Source: Alcaligenes faecalis
GTDB lineage: Bacteria; Pseudomonadota; Gammaproteobacteria; Burkholderiales; Burkholderiaceae_B
NCBI RefSeq assembly: GCF_041521385.1
Contig: NZ_CP168006.1
Coordinates: 620,001-684,000, forward strand
Direction: 5' to 3'
Length of the DNA stretch: 64,000 nt
Shown here: in pieces, positions 12,863-22,300 of the stretch
Layout: the number at the start of each line of letters is the position of its first letter
How positions within the stretch are numbered: position 1 is the stretch's first letter
Notes under the pieces: model-generated
What the model was told of the DNA's origin: nothing
What the model saw: the letters and a program-made list of their open reading frames with translations, nothing else
Databases searched by the model: none
Position numbers and translations under genes: made by a program

Positions 12863-14086
12863 ATGCTTTACGATCTGCACGAACTTCAGCGGTCCTTTCT
12901 GGCCCCGCTGGCTGCCTTTACCGGCACCAGCTCTCAATGGTTCTCCAACCCCTACAGTCCACTGGCCTATACCCCCCTGTCGCGCCAACTGGCGGCGGCC
13001 TCTGAACTGGTACACCGTATCGGCAAGGATTACGAAAAGCCGGCCTGGGGGCTTGGCGAAACCCAGATTGACGGCCAGACCGTCGCTGTACAGGAGGTCG
13101 AACACCTGAGCAAACCTTTCTGTAGGCTGATCCACTTCAAGCGTGATCATCCCAAAGCCGATCAGGACCCCACGATCTTGCTAGTCGCCCCCCTGTCCGG
13201 CCACCACGCCACCTTGCTGCGTGAAACCGTACGTGCGCTGCTGCCCGATCACTCGGTTTATGTCACCGACTGGATTGATGCCCGCATGGTGCCCCGCTCG
13301 GCTGGCCCCTTCCATCTGGACGACTATGTCCTGTATGTGCAGGAATTCATCCAGGTGCTGGGCCCAAAAGTGCACGTCATGTCGGTTTGCCAGCCCACGG
13401 TGCCAGTATTGGCTGCCGTATCGCTGATGGCAAGCCGTCGCTCGGCCGTGATGCCGCGCAGCATGATCATGATGGGTGGCCCCATCGACACCCGTCAATC
13501 GCCTACCGAGGTGAACCGTCTGGCCACCACCAAGTCCTACTCCTGGTTTGAGAACAATCTGATTCATCGCGTGCCAACCAAATACCCCGGTGCTCACCGT
13601 CGTGTGTACCCCGGCTTTTTGCAGCATGCTGGTTTTGTAGCCATGAATCCGGATCGTCACGTCAGCTCGCACTACGACTTTTATCAGCACCTGATCAAGG
13701 GTGATGATGACGACGCCCAAGCACATCGCCGCTTCTACGACGAATACAATGCCGTGCTGGACATGCCTGCCGAGTTCTATCTGGACACCATTCGCATTGT
13801 GTTCCAGGAACACCGCCTGCCCAAAGGCCAATGGCACGTGCATGGCAAACAAGTCCGCCCCCAGGATATTGATGGCGTGGCCTTGTTTACCATTGAGGGC
13901 GAACTGGACGATATCTCCGGCCAGGGTCAGACCCACTCGGCTCAAGGACTGTGCTCAAAAATCGCCCCTGAGCTCAAGCAGCAATTCACCGCGCCCAACT
14001 GTGGCCATTACGGGATTTTCTCCGGAAGCCGCTGGCGCACGCTGATCTGTCCTAAAATCAGGGACTTCATCCGTCAGCACAACTGA
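12863..14086 (+). CDS. phaZ: Intracellular polyhydroxybutyrate depolymerase
   Basis: Degrades stored polyhydroxybutyrate granules to 3-hydroxybutyrate units. The 407-residue protein matches the Ralstonia-type intracellular depolymerases, in which cysteine replaces serine as the nucleophile: Cys176 lies in SVCQPTVP. The acid is in the [13 protein letters not shown] segment and the histidine in [13 protein letters not shown]. There is no signal peptide, as expected for an enzyme acting inside the cell on granules. The gene has its own strong terminator. The 216 bases between fdxA and this gene hold no other gene I can support. Confidence 0.92.
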
Positions 14087-14138: not shown

Positions 14139-14780
14139 ATGTCCGACACCCTCATACGGCGCATTGACGCCCTGCTCCCTCAAACCCAGTGCACCCGCTG
14201 TGGTTACGATGCCTGTCTGCCCTACGCCCAAGCCATTGCGCTTGAAGGCGAGGCGATCAACCGCTGCCCGCCCGGCGGTCAGCAAGGCGTCCAGGCCCTG
14301 GCCGAACTGCTGGGTCGTGAGGCCCTGCCCCTGGACCCGTCCTGTGGGGAATTTACCGGCCCCAGCCGCGCAGTAATCATTGAAGAACACTGTATTGGTT
14401 GCACGCTCTGTATCCAGGCCTGTCCGGTGGATGCCATTATTGGTGCCAACAAGCTGATGCACACCGTACTGGCCGACCGCTGCACTGGCTGCGAGCTCTG
14501 CGTGCCGCCCTGTCCGGTGGACTGCATCAGCATGATCCCTACCGATGAGTGGAGCGGCGAGCAGGCCATACAGGCTCGCCTGGACACAGAACAACGCCGC
14601 GACCGCCTGCTGGCCCGACACCAGGAAAGCTCGGATCTGGCTGCCCGTACCCTGGCGAATAAACCCGTCCTGGCCAACTCGGCCGATCAGGCCGATAAAC
14701 GCGAGGCATCCATTGCCTCTGCCCTGGCCCGCGCCCGTGCGCGACGCGCCAGCAAGACTACAAGCGAAACCACGCCATGA
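14139..14780 (+). CDS. rnfB: RnfB-type ferredoxin, electron transport complex subunit
   Basis: A 213-residue iron-sulfur protein. The N-terminal 4Fe-4S (GYDAC) motif [13 protein letters not shown] has its fourth cysteine in RCPPGGQQG. Two ferredoxin motifs follow ([12 protein letters not shown] and [12 protein letters not shown]). RnfB normally has an N-terminal membrane helix that is missing here, as in most betaproteobacterial copies placed before nth. It probably passes electrons to iron-sulfur or redox-sensing proteins; no other rnf genes are present. It ends in an Ala/Arg-rich helix and overlaps nth by four bases. The ATG has no Shine-Dalgarno and sits just after the phaZ terminator. Confidence 0.88.
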
Positions 14781-15415
14781 ACGCTGCCAAGCGCCACGAG
14801 ATTTTCAGCCGTTTTCAGGCCGCCAACCCCAAGCCCACGACCGAACTGGAATACGCCGATACCTTTCAACTGCTGATTGCAGTGATCCTGTCGGCCCAGG
14901 CCACAGACCGTTCCGTGAATCTGGCTACCGCCCGTTTCTTCCCGGAACATGGCACGCCGGAAGGGATTCTGGCCATGGGTGAGGAGGGTCTGCGAGAAGC
15001 CATCAAGACCATTGGCCTGTACAAGACCAAAGCGGCCAACGTCATCAAGACCTGTCGTATTTTGCTGGAACAGCATCAAGGCCAGGTCCCCTGTGACCGC
15101 GCAGCACTGGAGGCCCTTCCAGGGGTAGGACGCAAAACTGCCAACGTGGTTTTGAACACCGCTTTTGGCCTGCCCACCATTGCCGTGGATACCCATATTT
15201 TCCGCGTTGCCAATCGCACCGGCATTGCCCCAGGCAAAAACGTGGTTGAAGTGGAAAAGAAGCTGGAGAAAGTGATCCCCAAGCCCTTTTTGCTGGACGC
15301 TCACCACTGGCTGATTTTGCATGGTCGCTACATCTGTGTCGCCCGCAAACCCAAGTGCCCCCAGTGTGGAATTTCAGATTTGTGCGACTTCAAACCGAAA
15401 ACCGTTAACACTTAA
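14777..15415 (+). CDS. nth: Endonuclease III
   Basis: Base-excision-repair glycosylase/AP lyase for oxidised pyrimidines. The 212-residue protein has the helix-hairpin-helix [12 protein letters not shown] with catalytic Lys120 and the catalytic Asp138 in [12 protein letters not shown], the same numbers as the E. coli enzyme. The C-terminal [4Fe-4S] cysteines are spaced C-x6-C-x2-C-x5-C ([17 protein letters not shown]). It overlaps rnfB by four bases, so it is translationally coupled. Confidence 0.97.
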
Positions 15416-15659
15416 GTAACACATACCCGGTTTAACAACATTTGTTTACTAAACAGTGCATTAAACCGAACCATCCTATGACAAACCCGCATAGTCTTGC
15501 TTGGTCGGCGCTTCCATACTGAAACGCATGAAGGACTCTGCCTCAAGTTTGCTGGCGGCGGAAGCACCGCAGTCAGTGGTAAAGGACGCGTAACGGGTGC
15601 CTGCGCCGACCAGCCAACGTACAGGCCCATATTGACGCCTTACGACAAGGAGTATTCTC

Positions 15660-16373
15660 ATGACACGGGCTGCCCTGGATATTGAGAATCTGTACGCTTG
15701 GCAACGAGAGTTTCCGCTCTTGCGTGGATTGAATTTGCAGGTTGCTGCGGGCGAGATCTGCACCGTGCTGAGCCGCAACCGGGCCGGCCGCAGCGCCATG
15801 CTACGCGCCATCGTGGGTTTGACGGATAGCCGCCGCGGTTCCATCCGTATTCAAGGTACTGAAACCATACACCTGAACCAACACCAGCTAGCAGACCTGG
15901 GGGTGGGCTACAGCCCTTACGAACAAAGCATTTTTACCGGTCTGAGCTGCGAGGAAAACCTCCTGCTGCCACCCGCCATAGGCACCGCCCTGGGTGGCGG
16001 TATGTCGCTGGTGCAGATCTATGAGCTTTTACCCAGCCTGGAGCAACGGCGTCACCACATGGCCACCCAGCTCTCCACTGGCGAGCAAAAAATACTGGCC
16101 ATTGCACGCTTGCTGCGCACGGGTGTGAATCTGCTGCTTCTGGACAAGGTATCCGAGGGCCTGGCCCCAGTGCAGGCCCAGACACTAAGCAAATTGATCT
16201 GCACGCTGCGCAATGAGGGCTACACCATTGTGCTGGCCGAGCAATGCACGCCGTTCTCGGCAGAATTTAGCGATCAGTTTCATGTACTGGAACAAGGGCA
16301 AATTATCGAGCGATTCGATCGTCGTGAATTAAGCCATAAATACGAGGCTCTGCACGCACTCTTGAATGTATGA
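15660..16373 (+). CDS. LivF-like ABC protein with degenerate ATPase motifs
   Basis: A 237-residue protein with the full layout of a branched-chain amino acid ABC ATPase, but with key residues changed. Walker A reads SRNRAGRS (38-45): the lysine is Arg44 and the first glycine is Ser38. The signature is LSTGE (138-142) instead of LSGGE. Walker B ends LLLLDKVSEGLAP, with the catalytic glutamate replaced by Lys163 and the usual proline by valine. The frame is intact, with a perfect AAGGAG site seven bases before the ATG, so it is expressed rather than decaying. It stands alone 1 kb from a complete liv cluster. It may be a non-hydrolysing regulator or a subunit pairing with a working ATPase; that is inference. 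Confidence 0.85.
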   Translation: MTRAALDIENLYAWQREFPLLRGLNLQVAAGEICTVLSRNRAGRSAMLRAIVGLTDSRRGSIRIQGTETIHLNQHQLADLGVGYSPYEQSIFTGLSCEENLLLPPAIGTALGGGMSLVQIYELLPSLEQRRHHMATQLSTGEQKILAIARLLRTGVNLLLLDKVSEGLAPVQAQTLSKLICTLRNEGYTIVLAEQCTPFSAEFSDQFHVLEQGQIIERFDRRELSHKYEALHALLNV

Positions 16374-16626
16374 GGCTTTGTGACTCTTCAAGTGCCAAAT
16401 CTGCTTGCTCCCCCTGCCTGTCCTTGTCGGCAGGCGCAGGATCCACATAAGCCGACTTTCCGAAGACGACGAAACCGCTCTGAAATACCCGGACAAGCTC
16501 CAAGGTTTTCCATTTCCGGACTGTTACCAGGTGATGCAAAAAACAGACATAGTGCCGAAATTCACCCGGCATGAAGTCTGCTTACTTGATCTACAACAAG
16601 GTCAGGCGGCCAACTACCTCTGAAGC
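16374..16626. other. Intergenic stretch after the LivF-like gene
   Basis: No supported gene. One open frame (16405-16623) could encode 72 residues from a TTG codon but lacks a ribosome-binding site. No terminator with a clear T run is seen behind the LivF-like gene. Confidence 0.4.
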
Positions 16627-16640
16627 TTGCTTTGGATCAA
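16627..16640 (+). promoter_or_regulatory. Candidate FNR/ANR box upstream of ompW
   Basis: TTGCT-TTGG-ATCAA matches the FNR consensus TTGAT-N4-ATCAA at 9 of 10 positions. It lies about 60 bases before the ompW ATG, with a -10-like TAGACT at 16670-16675, roughly where an activator should sit. Oxygen-responsive control of ompW is known in enterobacteria. Confidence 0.5.
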
Positions 16641-16699
16641 ATCTGCGGGCCCAGCCCTCATGCACTCTGTAGACTTTACACCCCCCCTACGGAGTCACT

Positions 16700-17341
16700 A
16701 TGAAAGCCCGCCACTTGTTTCCCGGTCTACACCTGTCCTTGCTCGCGGTAGGACTGGCTGCTGTTTTGTACGCGCCTCAAGGCCAAACACACGAAGCGGG
16801 CGATTTCTTGCTTAAAGGTGGTGTGACCTGGGTCTCTCCAAAATCCAATAACGGTTCGGTTGCCAATGGCACCGTGGATTTGGACGTCGGTAATAATGCC
16901 CGCCCCAGCTTCTCGCTGACTTACATGGCGACACGCAATATCGGTATTGAACTGCTGGGCGCTTTCCCCTTCCAACACAATATCGACAGCAACCTGGGCC
17001 GTATCGGCAAGACCAAGCACCTGCCCCCAACCCTGAGTCTGCAATACCATTTCCTGCCTGACAGCGACTTCCAACCCTATGTGGGCGTAGGCGTGAACTA
17101 CACCATGTTCTTCGATACCGAATCGCGCGGTGCTCTGGCGGGTTCCGACCTGAAGCTGAAAAACAGTTGGGGTTTTGCCGCCCAGGTCGGCGTAGATTAC
17201 AAACTGGACAAGAACTGGTTCCTGAATGCCGATGTACGCTACATCAGCATCCGCCCAGACGTGAAACTGAACGGTCAGTCCATTGGCAAAGCCAAGCTGG
17301 ACCCCGTGGTTGCCACCATCGGGGTCGGCTACCGCTTCTAA
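16700..17341 (+). CDS. ompW: Outer membrane protein OmpW
   Basis: Small eight-stranded outer-membrane barrel for hydrophobic or small amphipathic molecules. The 213-residue product has an N-terminal signal segment (about residues 1-30). The mature protein begins near [17 protein letters not shown], and the beta strands include [12 protein letters not shown] and the conserved [13 protein letters not shown] block. It ends in a C-terminal phenylalanine (GVGYRF), the outer-membrane sorting signal. GGAG precedes the ATG by eight bases. Its stop codon overlaps the stop of the convergent livF with no terminator between them. Confidence 0.93.
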
Positions 17342-18120
17342 GCCGTCGCCTCTTCCTGCTCGCGTTTGCCCTGCCCCAAGCCCAGATAGCTTTCTATCAC
17401 TCGGGGATTATGAGCCAGGTCAGACGCGGGCCCTTGCAGCACCACATCCCCCGTCTCCAGCACATAACCGTAATCAGCCACTTGTAAAGCGGCGCGTGCA
17501 TTTTGCTCGACCAGCAAGATAGCCACACCGGTACTGCGCAGTCGGGCGATGATCATGAAGATCTCCCGCACCACACGCGGCGCCAGACCCAGACTGGGTT
17601 CATCGAGCATCAGCACTTTGGGTTGCGCCATCAAGGCACGGCCTACGGCCAGCATCTGCCGCTCCCCACCTGACAAGGTCCCTGCCAACTGCGTACGACG
17701 CTCTTTCAAGCGTGGAAACAAGGTATAGACCTTGTCCATGGTGTCGCGCCAACCGGGGTGGCGGGCACGATACAGGCGGAAACCGCCCAGCAGCAGATTA
17801 TCTTCCACCGTCATGCTGCCAAACAGCTCGCGGCGTTCTGGCACCAGGGAAATACCGGCCGCCACGCGACGCTCCACTTCCCAGTGACTGATCTCCTGCC
17901 CTTCGTACTGCACCGAGCCTGTGCTGCGGCCCACGCTGGGCAAAGAGCCCATCATGGAATTGAGCAAAGTGGACTTGCCTGCGCCGTTGGCGCCGATCAC
18001 CGTTACAATGCTGCCCGCCCGAACGTCCAGGCTGGCTCCCGTCACGGCGGTGACTTTGCCGTACTGAGCGGCCAGATTGTCTACTTTCAGGATGATGTCT
18101 TTCGATTGTGCCGAACTCAT
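17338..18120 (-). CDS. livF: Branched-chain amino acid-type ABC transporter ATPase LivF
   Basis: One of two ATPases powering the importer encoded upstream. The 260-residue protein has intact motifs: Walker A GANGAGKS (43-50), signature LSGGERQML, Walker [14 protein letters not shown], and VEQN after Walker B as usual for LivF. It overlaps livM-livG by four bases (ATGA). It is the last gene of the leftward cluster. Contrast the degenerate paralogue at 15660-16373. Confidence 0.95.
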
Positions 18121-19949
18121 AACGCTGCTCCTGCCGAGGCGGGCTCATTGACCGGATCCAGATCCAGGTCGTCATCAATACCACCCAGGTAGGCTTCCAG
18201 CACGGCTGGATTTTCCTGAATTTCCTTGGGCAAACCTTCGGCCAACTTGGTGCCAAAATCCATGACAACCAGCTTGTCCGTCAAATTCATGACAAAGTCC
18301 ATGTCATGCTCAACCAGCAAAATGCTCATGCCTTCGCTACGCAACTGATCCAGCACCTTGGCCAGCTCCTGCTTTTCCTTGTAGCGCAAGCCAGCCGCCG
18401 GCTCGTCCAGCAGCAAGAGCAGCGGATCGGAAGCCAGCGCACGGGCAATTTCCAGAATACGCTGCTGACCCAGAGCCAGATTGCCGGCTTCTTCGTACAG
18501 GTAATCACCCAGGCCCACGCGCTGCAGTTGAACAGCCGCTTCGTGCAACAGCTCGGCTTCGCTACGACGCTCGGTATGCAGGACGGCGGACACCACACCG
18601 ACATTGCGACGCAAGTGCGCGCCCAACGCCACGTTTTCCAGAACCGTCATCGTAGGCAGCAACTGTACGTGCTGGAAGGTACGGCCCACGCCCAGACGAG
18701 AAATCTCGCGTGCAGGTTTGCCATCAATCCGTTGACCCAGAAAGCTGACTTGACCGCTGGTGGCCGACAGCACGCCCGTAATCAGGTTGAAGGTCGTGCT
18801 CTTGCCCGCGCCGTTAGGACCGATCAGGCCCATGATCTGACCTGCATTCAAGGTGAAACTGATGTCGTTCACGGCCACCAGACCACCGAACTCCTTACGG
18901 ATCTTGTTCACTTCCAGAACCAGCGAACCGGCCTGGGGACGCTCGCGCTGAGGCAGGGCCTCGGCTTGCGCAGGAGCCGCCTGTTTGCGCTTCTGTGCAC
19001 CGAAGACCTGTTCCCAAGCCTTGTGCAAAATGGGCCACAGACCGTCGCGAGCGTATTGCAGAATCAGCACCATCAAGATACCGAAAACGATCAGCTCGAA
19101 GTTGATGTCGGTATTGAGCAACTTGGGCAACCAGTTCTGCAACTGGTCTTTCAGGCTCAGCACCAGAGCCGAACCCAACACAGCACCCCACACACTGCCT
19201 GCCCCACCCAGCACGGCCATGAACAGGTATTCAATACCGTAGTTCAGACCAAATGGGCTGGGAGAGACCGCGCGTTGGTAGTGGGCGTACAACCAGCCCG
19301 ACACGCAAGCCAGCAAGGCAGCGTAAACAAACACGATGACCTTGTAATTGGCCATGTTCACGCCAAAGGACTCAGCCATGCCACTGCCGTGTTTCAGAGC
19401 GCGAATGGCACGTCCTGGACGGGAGTTCAGCAAATTGCGTGTCCCCCACATGGCCAGCAAGGCAAAGGCCCAGATCAGGTAGTAAATATCCCGGCCCGAG
19501 GACAGAGACATACCGAAGAACTCCAAAGGAGCAATACCGGAAATACCATCGTACTGCCCCAGGAACTCCAGGTTGCCGAACAGGTAGTACAAGGCCAGCC
19601 CCCAGGCCAAGGTACACAGGGGCAGGAAGTGACCCGACAAGCGTAGTGTGATCGCACCCAGAATGTAGGCCACCATCATGGTAATGGCGATACCAATCAA
19701 CAGATTGAACCAGGGCGACCAGCCCAGGCGAGCCGTCAGGTACGCCGTGGTGTAGGCACCCAGGCCCACAAATGCAGCCTGACCAAACGAAGTCAAACCA
19801 CCCACGCCAGTCAACAGCACCAGACCCAGAACAACCAGACTGGTCAGGCCAATATAGTTAAGCTGGGTAATCCAGAATTCGGGCGTTGCGCCCAACTGCG
19901 GCAAAACCAATAGAACCGCAATAAACAATAGCGTCAGCCAGTGTCTCAT
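18117..19949 (-). CDS. Fused LivM permease-LivG ATPase
   Basis: A single 610-residue protein. Residues about 1-320 are a LivM-type permease with about ten hydrophobic segments (for example [20 protein letters not shown] and the [14 protein letters not shown] motif). A charged linker rich in Lys, Ala and Gln follows (about 322-340), then a LivG ATPase with Walker [10 protein letters not shown] (near 374), signature [10 protein letters not shown], Walker [13 protein letters not shown] and VEHDM. Permease and ATPase are normally separate genes; the frame is continuous here with no internal stop. GGAG lies eight bases before the ATG. The substrate is probably a branched-chain amino acid or related small compound. 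Confidence 0.93.
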
Positions 19950-19954
19950 GTGAT

Positions 19955-20992
19955 TTACTCCTCATCATCCACGTGCTTGCTACCGAAGGAGCGCCACAAC
20001 AACACCGGTATCACCATGGTAAATACAATAACTTCTTTGTAGGCACTGGCCCAGAAAGAGGAAAACGCTTCCAGAACCCCCAGGAACAAGGCGCCCAGCA
20101 GCGTGACGGGGTAACTGATCAAACCACCGAAAATCGCCGCCACAAACCCTTTCAAGCCGATCAAAAAGCCGGTGTCGTAGTAGATGGTCGTCACAGGAGC
20201 GATCAGCATGCCGGACAAGGCGCCAATCGCTGCCGCCAGGGTGAAGGTCAGAGAACCGGACATATTGGTGCTGATACCCACCAGACGGGCACCACGACGG
20301 TTCACCGCTGTTGCACGCAAGGCGCGACCATACAGGGTCTTACCGAAAAAGCCCCACAAGGCCAGAATCAGCAGCACGCAAGCGCCCATCACAAAGAAGG
20401 TCTGTGCGGACCAGCTTACTGCGCCCAGGGACACTTCCCCTTCCATGAAGGGAGGCGTACGCCAGCCTTCCGGACCGAAGAACACCAGACCCAAACCCGT
20501 CAGCGCAAAGTGCACGGCGACCGAGGTAATCAGCAGCACCAACACACTGGCTTCGGCGATAGGTTGGTAGACCAGGCGATAGACCATAGGGCCTAGAGGA
20601 ATCACAACCGCCAGCGAGAAGAGCACGGCCACCCACAAAGGCAGCTCCGAGCTGACAATGGCTGGAGCGGCAAAATAAACCGCGACGGGAATCACGATAT
20701 TGACCAGAAACTTGCGTGGCATACCTGCCAGGCTGCGGCTGCGCAAAGCAGAGAGCAGCTCCAGCAAGAACACCAGAGCACCGGCGATCAATAACAAAAT
20801 AACGGTTCCCGGCATGCGGCCATTGACCACGAAGGCCAAGGTCAAGGCGCCAAAGGTAACAAACTCACCTTGTGGAATAAAAATGACGCGGGTAACCAGG
20901 AAAACCAGAACCAGGGCGAGCCCGAGCAAAGCATAGATGGCGCCATTCAATATGCCATCCTGCAACAAAATCAAAGCAATGGTGGTATCCAT
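19955..20992 (-). CDS. livH: Branched-chain amino acid-type ABC permease LivH
   Basis: Inner-membrane permease of 345 residues with about eight to nine hydrophobic helices. It opens [20 protein letters not shown], the usual LivH start. Typical motifs are the [13 protein letters not shown] region and [24 protein letters not shown] near the C-terminus. The frame is open to 21082, but those extra 30 residues would be untypical; AGGA lies 11 bases before the ATG at 20992. It partners the fused LivM-LivG; five bases separate them. Confidence 0.9.
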
Positions 20993-21092
20993 GTCGGACA
21001 ACATCCTGTACAACAAAAAGGGCAAAGGGCTTACGGCAAACGCAGGCCTGTAGCGGGAACGGGCACCAGGGTCCTCAGGCACCCGCCTTGGA

Positions 21093-21118
21093 AAAAACCG
21101 GCTTGGGAGCCGGTTTTT
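21093..21118 (-). terminator. Terminator between the binding-protein gene and livH
   Basis: A 10-bp stem AAAAACCGGC / GCCGGTTTTT with a 6-base loop and a T run on the minus strand. It lies 12 bases after the stop codon of the binding-protein gene, so most transcripts should end here and some read through into livH. Confidence 0.85.
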
Positions 21119-21130
21119 GCCTGTCAGATA

Positions 21131-22300
21131 TTACAGATCAGGCTGATATGTCCATTTACCGTCAACCACTTTCACAATCACGTGGGCACGTTTGTCCAAA
21201 CCTGCGTGGTCCGTGGCAGACATATTGAACACACCTTGGGACGCGGCCAGCTCTTTGGTCTGCTCCAGAGCGTCACGCAAAGCGGCACGAAACTCGGGAG
21301 TACCTGGTTTGGCACCGGACTTCAGGGCTTCTGGAATGGCTTCGGTCACGAGCAAACCAGCATCCCACATATGACCGCCGAAGGTGTTGATGGAGCCAGC
21401 ACCATACTTGGCTTCGTATTTTTCCTTGTACTCCATGGCGGTCTTTTTCACCGTGCTGCTGTCAGGCAGTTGCTCGGCAACCAGCAAAGGACCGGCTGGC
21501 AAGATCATGTCGTTACAGTCTTTGCCACATACACGCAGCACGTCGCTGTTGGCCGCACCGTGTGTCTGGTAAATGATGCCGGCGTAGCCACGGCCTTTCA
21601 GTTCACGCTGAGGCAAGGCCACCGGCGTGCCGGAACCAGCGATCAAAATGGCGTCAGGCTTGGTGCCCAGCAGCTTGAGGACCTGACCGGTCACACTGGT
21701 GTCGTTACGGCCATAACGCTCGGCGCCCAGCACTTTAATGCCCTTGGCTTGAGCCGCCTCGGTAATCACATTCAGCCAGCCATCGCCGTAGGCGTCGTTA
21801 TAGCCAATAAAGCCCAGGGTCTTGACGTTTTGCTTGACCATGGCCTCTGCCAAGGCACCGGCCATCAACTGGTCGTTCTGGGGAGTTTTGAATACCCAGG
21901 TACGAGCACCTTCAACAGGCTCAACAATCTTGGCGTTGGCAGCCACGCTGATCATGGGTGTCTTGGTTTCGCCCGCAACGTCTACCATGGCCAAAGAACC
22001 CGGTGTCACGGACGTGCCGATCACCACATCCACTTTGTCGTCCGTAATCAGCTTGCGCATATTGCGTACGGCCACCGTGGTATCGGTGGCATCGTCCAGA
22101 ACGATGTATTCGATTTTCTGGCCGGCCACTTCAGTAGGCAACAGGCTGACTGTATTGCGCTCGGGAATACCCAGCGAGGCCGCCGGTCCTGTCGCTGCCA
22201 CCGTCACACCCACTTTGATCTGCGCAGACACGGCTACGGGCAGACTCAAAGCCAGGGCTGCAGCCAATGTCGTCAGACGACCAGTAGTAATGCAGTTCAT
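21131..22300 (-). CDS. ABC transporter substrate-binding protein, LivJ/LivK family
   Basis: Periplasmic type-1 binding protein of 389 residues that delivers ligand to LivH/LivM. The signal peptide is about residues 1-26 (MNCITTGRLTTLAAALALSL through VSA, cleavage before QIKVGV). The two-lobe family pattern is visible in GPAASLGIPERNT, the GYNDAYGDGW hinge region and IYQTHGAAN. Ligand identity cannot be read from sequence; such proteins bind Leu/Ile/Val but also aromatic acids or amides. It is the first gene of the leftward transport cluster. Confidence 0.9.
   Translation of the reverse strand: MNCITTGRLTTLAAALALSLPVAVSAQIKVGVTVAATGPAASLGIPERNTVSLLPTEVAGQKIEYIVLDDATDTTVAVRNMRKLITDDKVDVVIGTSVTPGSLAMVDVAGETKTPMISVAANAKIVEPVEGARTWVFKTPQNDQLMAGALAEAMVKQNVKTLGFIGYNDAYGDGWLNVITEAAQAKGIKVLGAERYGRNDTSVTGQVLKLLGTKPDAILIAGSGTPVALPQRELKGRGYAGIIYQTHGAANSDVLRVCGKDCNDMILPAGPLLVAEQLPDSSTVKKTAMEYKEKYEAKYGAGSINTFGGHMWDAGLLVTEAIPEALKSGAKPGTPEFRAALRDALEQTKELAASQGVFNMSATDHAGLDKRAHVIVKVVDGKWTYQPDL

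Follow-up and report, generated by a model that had tools for sequence, protein, structure and literature searches.

A conserved LivF-type protein of Alcaligenes faecalis with altered ATPase motifs, apparently orphaned from an nth-linked liv operon and recurring in nine genera

The gene beside nth in Alcaligenes faecalis raises the question of what a LivF-type ABC protein may do once the residues expected to hydrolyse ATP have been replaced. An initial annotation had described a complete reading frame of normal length with AAGGAG before its start and three altered catalytic positions (Arg44, the signature LSTGE and Lys163), and had proposed selection for a non-hydrolysing role, for example as a regulator or a dominant partner of the LivF/LivG ATPases encoded nearby. 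The gene, here termed F', was compared with relatives in the genus, in a sample of 200 genomes forming the family set (G-numbers denote genomes, g-numbers genera) and in the protein database. The window is the whole stretch of DNA analysed, 64,000 nucleotides in length.

The gene, its motifs and the selection on it

F' occupies 15660..16373 of the window (+) as a complete open reading frame of 237 amino acids. As first described, its length is normal and an AAGGAG ribosome binding site, read from the sequence at 15647..15652 (+), lies 7 nt before the ATG; it was found in 8/8 of the genomes termed the crown below. The upstream neighbour nth (14777..15415, +; endonuclease III, a name taken from the first reading) served as synteny anchor. 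On the opposite strand lies the main liv operon (17338..22300, -), its genes named by resemblance and their products being candidate partners of F': livF (17338-18120, -), a livM-livG fusion (18117-19949, -), livH (19955-21082, -) and livK (21131-22300, -). The apparent fusion of livM and livG forms a single ORF of 610 aa, and matches of about that length occur in several relatives.

F' matched the Pfam family ABC_tran (PF00005) with E=1.4e-16 and 61.8 bits against a gathering score of 25. The best-scoring named families were the UrtE and LivF equivalogs, and F' stayed far under their curated cut-offs, with 149.8 against 285.8 bits for UrtE (TIGR03410) and 102.7 against 441 bits for LivF (NF008626), the latter a strict cut-off under which the window's intact livF (258.9 bits) also falls. 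A LivF-like fold was confidently predicted by AlphaFold2 (pLDDT 88.4; 89.5 for an intact relative). The best-ranked solved structure for this fold was PDB 1ji0, a Thermotoga maritima ABC transporter protein which we take to be a LivF homologue; it is 30% identical to F', and its motifs are canonical whereas those of F' are not.

Eight of the ten genomes of the genus have F', namely the genome of the window and, at 90-97% identity, seven others with the same dead motifs; these eight are referred to as the crown. The other two gave matches of 59% (G009) and of 52% and 48% (G003). In the protein database, identities to F' ran from 88 to 93%, followed by a gap down to 58% and lower (best 120 of 7206 matches listed; 8000 candidates scored); crown members named among the matches listed included Alcaligenes faecalis, A. 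aquatilis, A. ammonioxydans and A. pakistanensis, and the dead motifs of the seven other genomes were also found in database clusters P0002-P0013.

By direct reading, the motifs of F' are SRNRAGRS (residues 38-45), PYEQ (86-89), LSTGEQK (138-144) and LLLLDKVSEG (158-167). Ancestral and derived residues were called from an alignment of F' with 128 intact relatives, one outgroup row (L006) entering none of the counts. The Walker A remnant S38-R-N-R41-A-G-R44 (15771..15791, +) carries the derived changes G38S and G41R, the Q-loop region P86-Y87-E-Q (15915..15926, +) carries E87Y, the signature LSTGEQK (16071..16091, +) carries G140T and Q144K, and Walker B LLLLDK (16131..16148, +) carries E163K. 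Together with Y15H/Q in the A-loop, the changes G38S, G41R, E87Y, G140T and E163K were derived in 8/8 crown genomes, at six positions that are invariant among the relatives (E87 in 127 of the 128), and the alteration, as judged from this alignment, exceeds chance. Throughout the crown, F' lacks the Walker A glycines 38 and 41, the LSGGE signature and the catalytic Glu of Walker B expected of an active ABC ATPase. Arg44 cannot be counted as a catalytic loss, since residue 44 is Arg in 128/128 intact relatives, and also in 132/132 operon-borne F proteins of a second test, and is thus ancestral. From the three hits first proposed, Thr140 and Lys163 remain, and Tyr15, Gly38, Gly41 and Glu87 have to be added. 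The nth-linked operon F family thus has Arg where Walker A normally carries Lys; the G partner in G009 (L026:9148-9921) keeps the Lys, and the intact nth-linked transporter may already use one canonical and one unusual site.

Selection was estimated by Nei-Gojobori counting over the 28 pairs of the eight crown genomes. For F', mean dN was 0.0425 and mean dS 0.879, a ratio of 0.048 with a pairwise range of 0.018-0.099. The control genes gave 0.017 (livF), 0.019 (livM-G), 0.041 (livH), 0.019 (livK), 0.015 (nth), 0.042 (the gene at 16700), 0.061 (the gene before nth) and 0.031 (the gene at 12863-14086). Constraint on F' is weaker than on livF or nth, yet lies well inside the range of working neighbours. 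The initial annotation had named intact-motif orthologues together with a dN/dS near 1 as the mark of pseudogene decay; such relatives do exist, in G009 and in other genera, yet the ratio is far from 1, and decay in the crown was rejected on this ground. The same value and the shared dead motifs of seven other genomes strengthen the case for selection for a non-hydrolysing role.

Across 240 codon columns, 41 were invariant, 155 varied only synonymously and 44 changed the residue. In the orthologues beside nth, which the initial annotation had wanted compared, Thr140 and Lys163 were constant in 8/8 crown genomes while their codons varied (ACT, ACG or ACC for Thr140, AAG or AAA for Lys163). Arg41 and Tyr87 also have two synonymous spellings each, the codon of Ser38 is constant, and residue 15 varies between His and Gln. 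The least constrained part is codons 211-240 (pN/pS 0.26); the last residues are replaced in G004 and G005 (2/8 crown genomes), and the G001 protein is 3 residues longer. From codon 31 on, synonymous sites vary freely (pS 0.41-0.63), and a function at the RNA or antisense level across the whole gene was therefore rejected. In codons 1-30 (15660-15749) pS is lower, at 0.24. In a crude check, the antisense frame covering the 5' end proved to be broken in 6/7 other crown genomes, and an Rfam scan of 15200-16900 at E up to 1 returned one match (E 0.23; 20.2 bits, below the gathering score of 31), which was taken as chance.

Kinship with an nth-linked second liv operon

F' shares about 30% identity with the neighbouring LivF, whose gene lies 1 kb away, and up to 59% with a separate, operon-borne F family, which rules out a recent copy of the nearby livF. 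In G009, which also belongs to the genus, a second, complete liv operon in the order G-F-K-H-M follows nth, with motifs canonical apart from Arg44. This arrangement was found beside nth in 16/20 related loci first examined, M lying past the contig end in one; at the other four the operon stands apart from nth, or nth is out of view. The operon-borne F of G009 and of the relatives, whose database names include Pollutimonas and Bordetella among the matches listed, shares the locus, a promoter-like element and the length of F', the window protein being 59% identical to that of G009 and about 55-58% to the others. The two differ in that operon-borne F reads GRNG(A/S)GRT, LSGGEQQ and LLLLDEISEGLAP, with few exceptions, and stands within G-F-K-H-M where inspected, whereas F' stands alone with dead motifs.

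The gaps around F' in the eight crown genomes, 244-245 nt on the side of nth and 192-328 nt on that of the following gene, are too short to accommodate G, K, H and M, which are therefore gone from this locus. No clear remnant of them was found in the flanks of F' (best tblastn E 0.049). Elsewhere in the eight genomes, no orthologue of the operon's H permease was found (best match <=38%, against 83% in G003), nor one of its G subunit (best match 41%). Sequence kinship, locus and promoter-like element thus align F' with the F family of the nth-linked operon, the partner genes being absent at the locus. F' appears to descend from the LivF-type F gene of a second liv operon, linked to nth, that lost G, K, H and M here, and its former partners would have been the products of that different, lost operon rather than those of the nearby main liv operon. 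As a separate observation, the window's genome holds two identical stretches of 3681 bases 45 kb apart (G000:C1 3056379-3060059 and 3101629-3105309; L003 and L004), and two more paralogue pairs score alike (1214499/1264227, 50 kb apart, and 3829374/3868486, 39 kb apart); these repeats are either recent duplications or an assembly artefact.

The spacer between nth and F' contains an element of the pattern CTATGNNAAACCCNCATRG-N20-CATACT. At 15476..15520 (+), the only match in the window, it consists of CTATGACAAACCCGCATAG, the ends of which form an inverted repeat, 20 nt and the -10-like CATACT, and it is common to the intact operon of relatives. The match is free of mismatches in 8/8 crown genomes and G009 and has two in G003. 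With <=3 mismatches allowed, each of the 10/10 genus genomes has one site, located before F' in nine and before the operon in G009, and the reversed control has none. In a survey of the first 450 nt of 44 nth spacers at <=2 mismatches, the element was present in 15/22 spacers with F' (one, that of G024, also with the operon), in 15/20 with the operon alone and in 0/2 with neither, and each of 880 shuffled spacers had at least 6 mismatches. The seven F' genes without the element are those of G082, G170 and G182 (g4), G014 (g6), G027 (g19), and G045 and G099 (g37). As the layout is rigid, we infer a promoter and operator role, and the element would be a putative promoter with operator retained from the lost operon.

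Recurrence at nth in other genera

Among 72 genomes inspected at nth, 29 carried F', 21 the operon without F' and 22 neither; since the loci were mainly selected for having no strong match, 29/72 is not a frequency. The count of 22 is to be read with a coverage of 1.5 kb past nth at five of these loci (L087-L091), with the sequence of G057 ending 2.6 kb after nth, and with the fact that tblastn could miss a very diverged F'. F' at nth is distributed over nine genera (nine genomes of g1, six of g4, four of g19, three of g35, two each of g16 and g37, and one each of g6, g17 and g27), and identities of F' to operon F ran from 39 to 63% in one part of this survey. The full set of eight core residues (G38, G41, G43, R/K44, S139, G140, D162 and E163) was kept in 0/23 F' and in 132/132 operon F; the 23 stand for the 29, five crown sequences and G062 having been omitted as near-identical and their motifs seen separately. 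The pattern of breakage differs between genera. In g19, the damage falls on the signature, the D-loop and the switch region, with Walker A and B near-normal, and ATP binding may persist there; in g35, g17 and G024, the signature is intact and Walker B is broken. F' pairs from g35 and g19 gave dN/dS values of 0.079, 0.079 and 0.084, a more distant g35 pair gave 0.094 at dS 2.1, and G024/G061 gave 0.19. Of four g4 pairs, three were saturated and the other had a ratio of 0.063 at dS 2.3. The database contributed 25 g4-type clusters at 60-100% identity to the F' of G012, the query's own included, of which the three examined were all dead by their motifs, as were P0122 and P0123, relatives of the G003 F'.

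G024 shows a tandem arrangement, nth-F'-G-F-K-H-M (L092 1979-4269), in which an F' with broken motifs immediately precedes a complete operon. Its F' is altered at Tyr15 of the A-loop, at T45N beside the Walker A glycines and at Asp162 of Walker B, and the operon F is intact. A separate dead F with a C-terminal tail, bearing Bordetella and Achromobacter names, lies away from nth in 4/6 g5 sample genomes; the promoter-like element was absent from its 1.5 kb flanks (L142, L143, L144 and L145), and the adjoining gene presumably encodes an EgtB-type protein.

In a tree with 26 hand-chosen operon F rows, F' sequences nested among operon F in several groups, the backbone lacking resolution and the branches being long. 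A single F' clade was neither recovered nor rejected (p-AU 0.363). In another tree, a clade of the crown with G009 was not rejected (p-AU 0.276). The placement of G003 differs between the two trees, with the crown at 92/86 in the latter and with g4 at 99/95 in the former, where long branches meet, as the tool warned. F' may have arisen several times by repeated independent orphaning and loss, or an ancient tandem duplication of the G024 type may have preceded the loss of F' in some lineages and of the operon in others.

Possible roles of the protein and known parallels

With its predicted fold kept, its catalytic residues lost and purifying selection acting on it, F' shows the marks of a pseudoenzyme. 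We regard it as a real and conserved LivF-type pseudoenzyme, predicted to be ATPase-dead and apparently orphaned from its operon, a pattern that recurs in nine genera; at the level of sequence, this covers its relatives and its position beside nth, the loss of both motifs and partners, the kept promoter-like element and purifying selection. Retention of near-invariant operon-F positions was compared across 14 F' proteins, in categories chosen after the alignment had been viewed, and was 0.79 in the helical subdomain (residues 95-127), 0.50 at the nucleotide site and 0.58 elsewhere, the helical subdomain being the best-kept part tested (Mann-Whitney p 1.3e-4 and 0.003). The retained pattern is LSCEENLLLP...GGGMSL..IYEL.P.L, and these residues may be fold core only. 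The groove residue F92, which we equate with F90 of LptB, is kept in the crown and lost in eight other F' aligned, which counts against an unchanged docking groove.

In ABC proteins, the helical subdomain is the docking place of the coupling helices of permeases, and its retention therefore led us to propose a non-hydrolysing, partner-binding subunit. The F gene of the nth-linked operon would have outlived its G, K, H and M partners. Its product would fold as an ABC nucleotide-binding domain unable to complete the ATPase cycle, would be encoded behind the old operon's promoter-like element, and would use its helical subdomain to contact a partner shared with active F, most likely the cytoplasmic loop of a permease of the Liv type. 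As the permeases once served are gone, such docking would require a different partner. Bound to a permease, F' could be a non-hydrolysing placeholder or a brake on uptake. Here we infer absent ATPase activity, expression, a partner and an inhibitory sense, and we favour the proposal of such a permease-binding leftover only tentatively, at somewhat less than an even chance.

It is unlikely, but worth weighing, that active F already had a second, ATP-independent job, such as binding a soluble regulator and reporting the nutrient state, which became the sole job under selection after transport was lost. MalK acts in this way on MalT. The presence of a dead F beside nth in nine genera, mostly behind the operon's element (15/22 spacers), conserved positions outside the ATP site and the dead F' preceding a complete operon with intact F in G024 would all fit; against this stand the lack of a candidate partner and of an accessory domain in F', and the 21/22 inspected operon-holding nth loci without F'. 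A broader version, which we consider possible though doubtful, holds that nth-linked Liv F proteins have an ATP-independent function of their own and that the ATPase was repeatedly stripped after transport loss or a G024-like duplication, the function being kept mostly behind the operon element and yielding free-standing pseudo-ABC regulators in at least nine genera. An entirely new function on the ABC fold, carried out by a soluble protein and unrelated to Liv transport, is likewise improbable: the loss of the operon-encoded H permease and of the G subunit throughout the crown genomes, the far divergence of F' from operon F and the tailed dead F of the Bordetella and Achromobacter type away from nth speak for it, whereas the retained promoter-like element and helical-subdomain residues are hard to reconcile with it.

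The remaining two explanations are much weaker. A relic in slow decay would account for an orphaned gene with several destroyed motifs, for the replaced C-terminus in two crown genomes and for the loci with neither gene, which show that F' can be absent, but it is very improbable in view of a dN/dS of 0.048 at a dS of 0.88, of a frame that is open and about full length in 8/8 crown genomes, and of altered residues that stay fixed while the codons of four change synonymously. We give no more credence to an active ATPase with unusual motifs or to a half-site that functions alongside a LivG-type partner. Arg in Walker A was already a feature of the ancestral family (132/132), and the intact signature beside a broken Walker B in G024, g35 and g17 could leave one working heterodimer site; the window protein, however, is altered in Walker A, Q-loop, signature and Walker B, and both composite sites of a heterodimer would therefore be broken. 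The permease-binding, non-hydrolysing subunit remains our preferred reading, if a tentative one.

A free-standing, dead importer subunit that persists after its transporter, retains the promoter element and recurs in nine genera would indicate that importer ATPases can have selectable, ATP-independent roles. The finding also calls for caution in annotation, as Alcaligenes orthologues of F' are named 'ABC transporter ATP-binding protein' in the sources. A partial literature search, including passages of PMC7756269, PMC9570263, PMC12915299 and PMC10094684, found no published account of F' or of a conserved free-standing dead LivF.

Known parallels are the degenerate nucleotide-binding sites of ABC exporters such as TmrAB, ABCB2/B3 and ABCC, for which a standing loss of the Walker B glutamate and of other motif residues is described (PMC7756269), a loss that F' shares. 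In these exporters, one of two sites is altered, and it lies inside an assembled transporter (PMC7756269). F', in contrast, is free-standing, without transporter genes, and altered in the motifs of both kinds of site.
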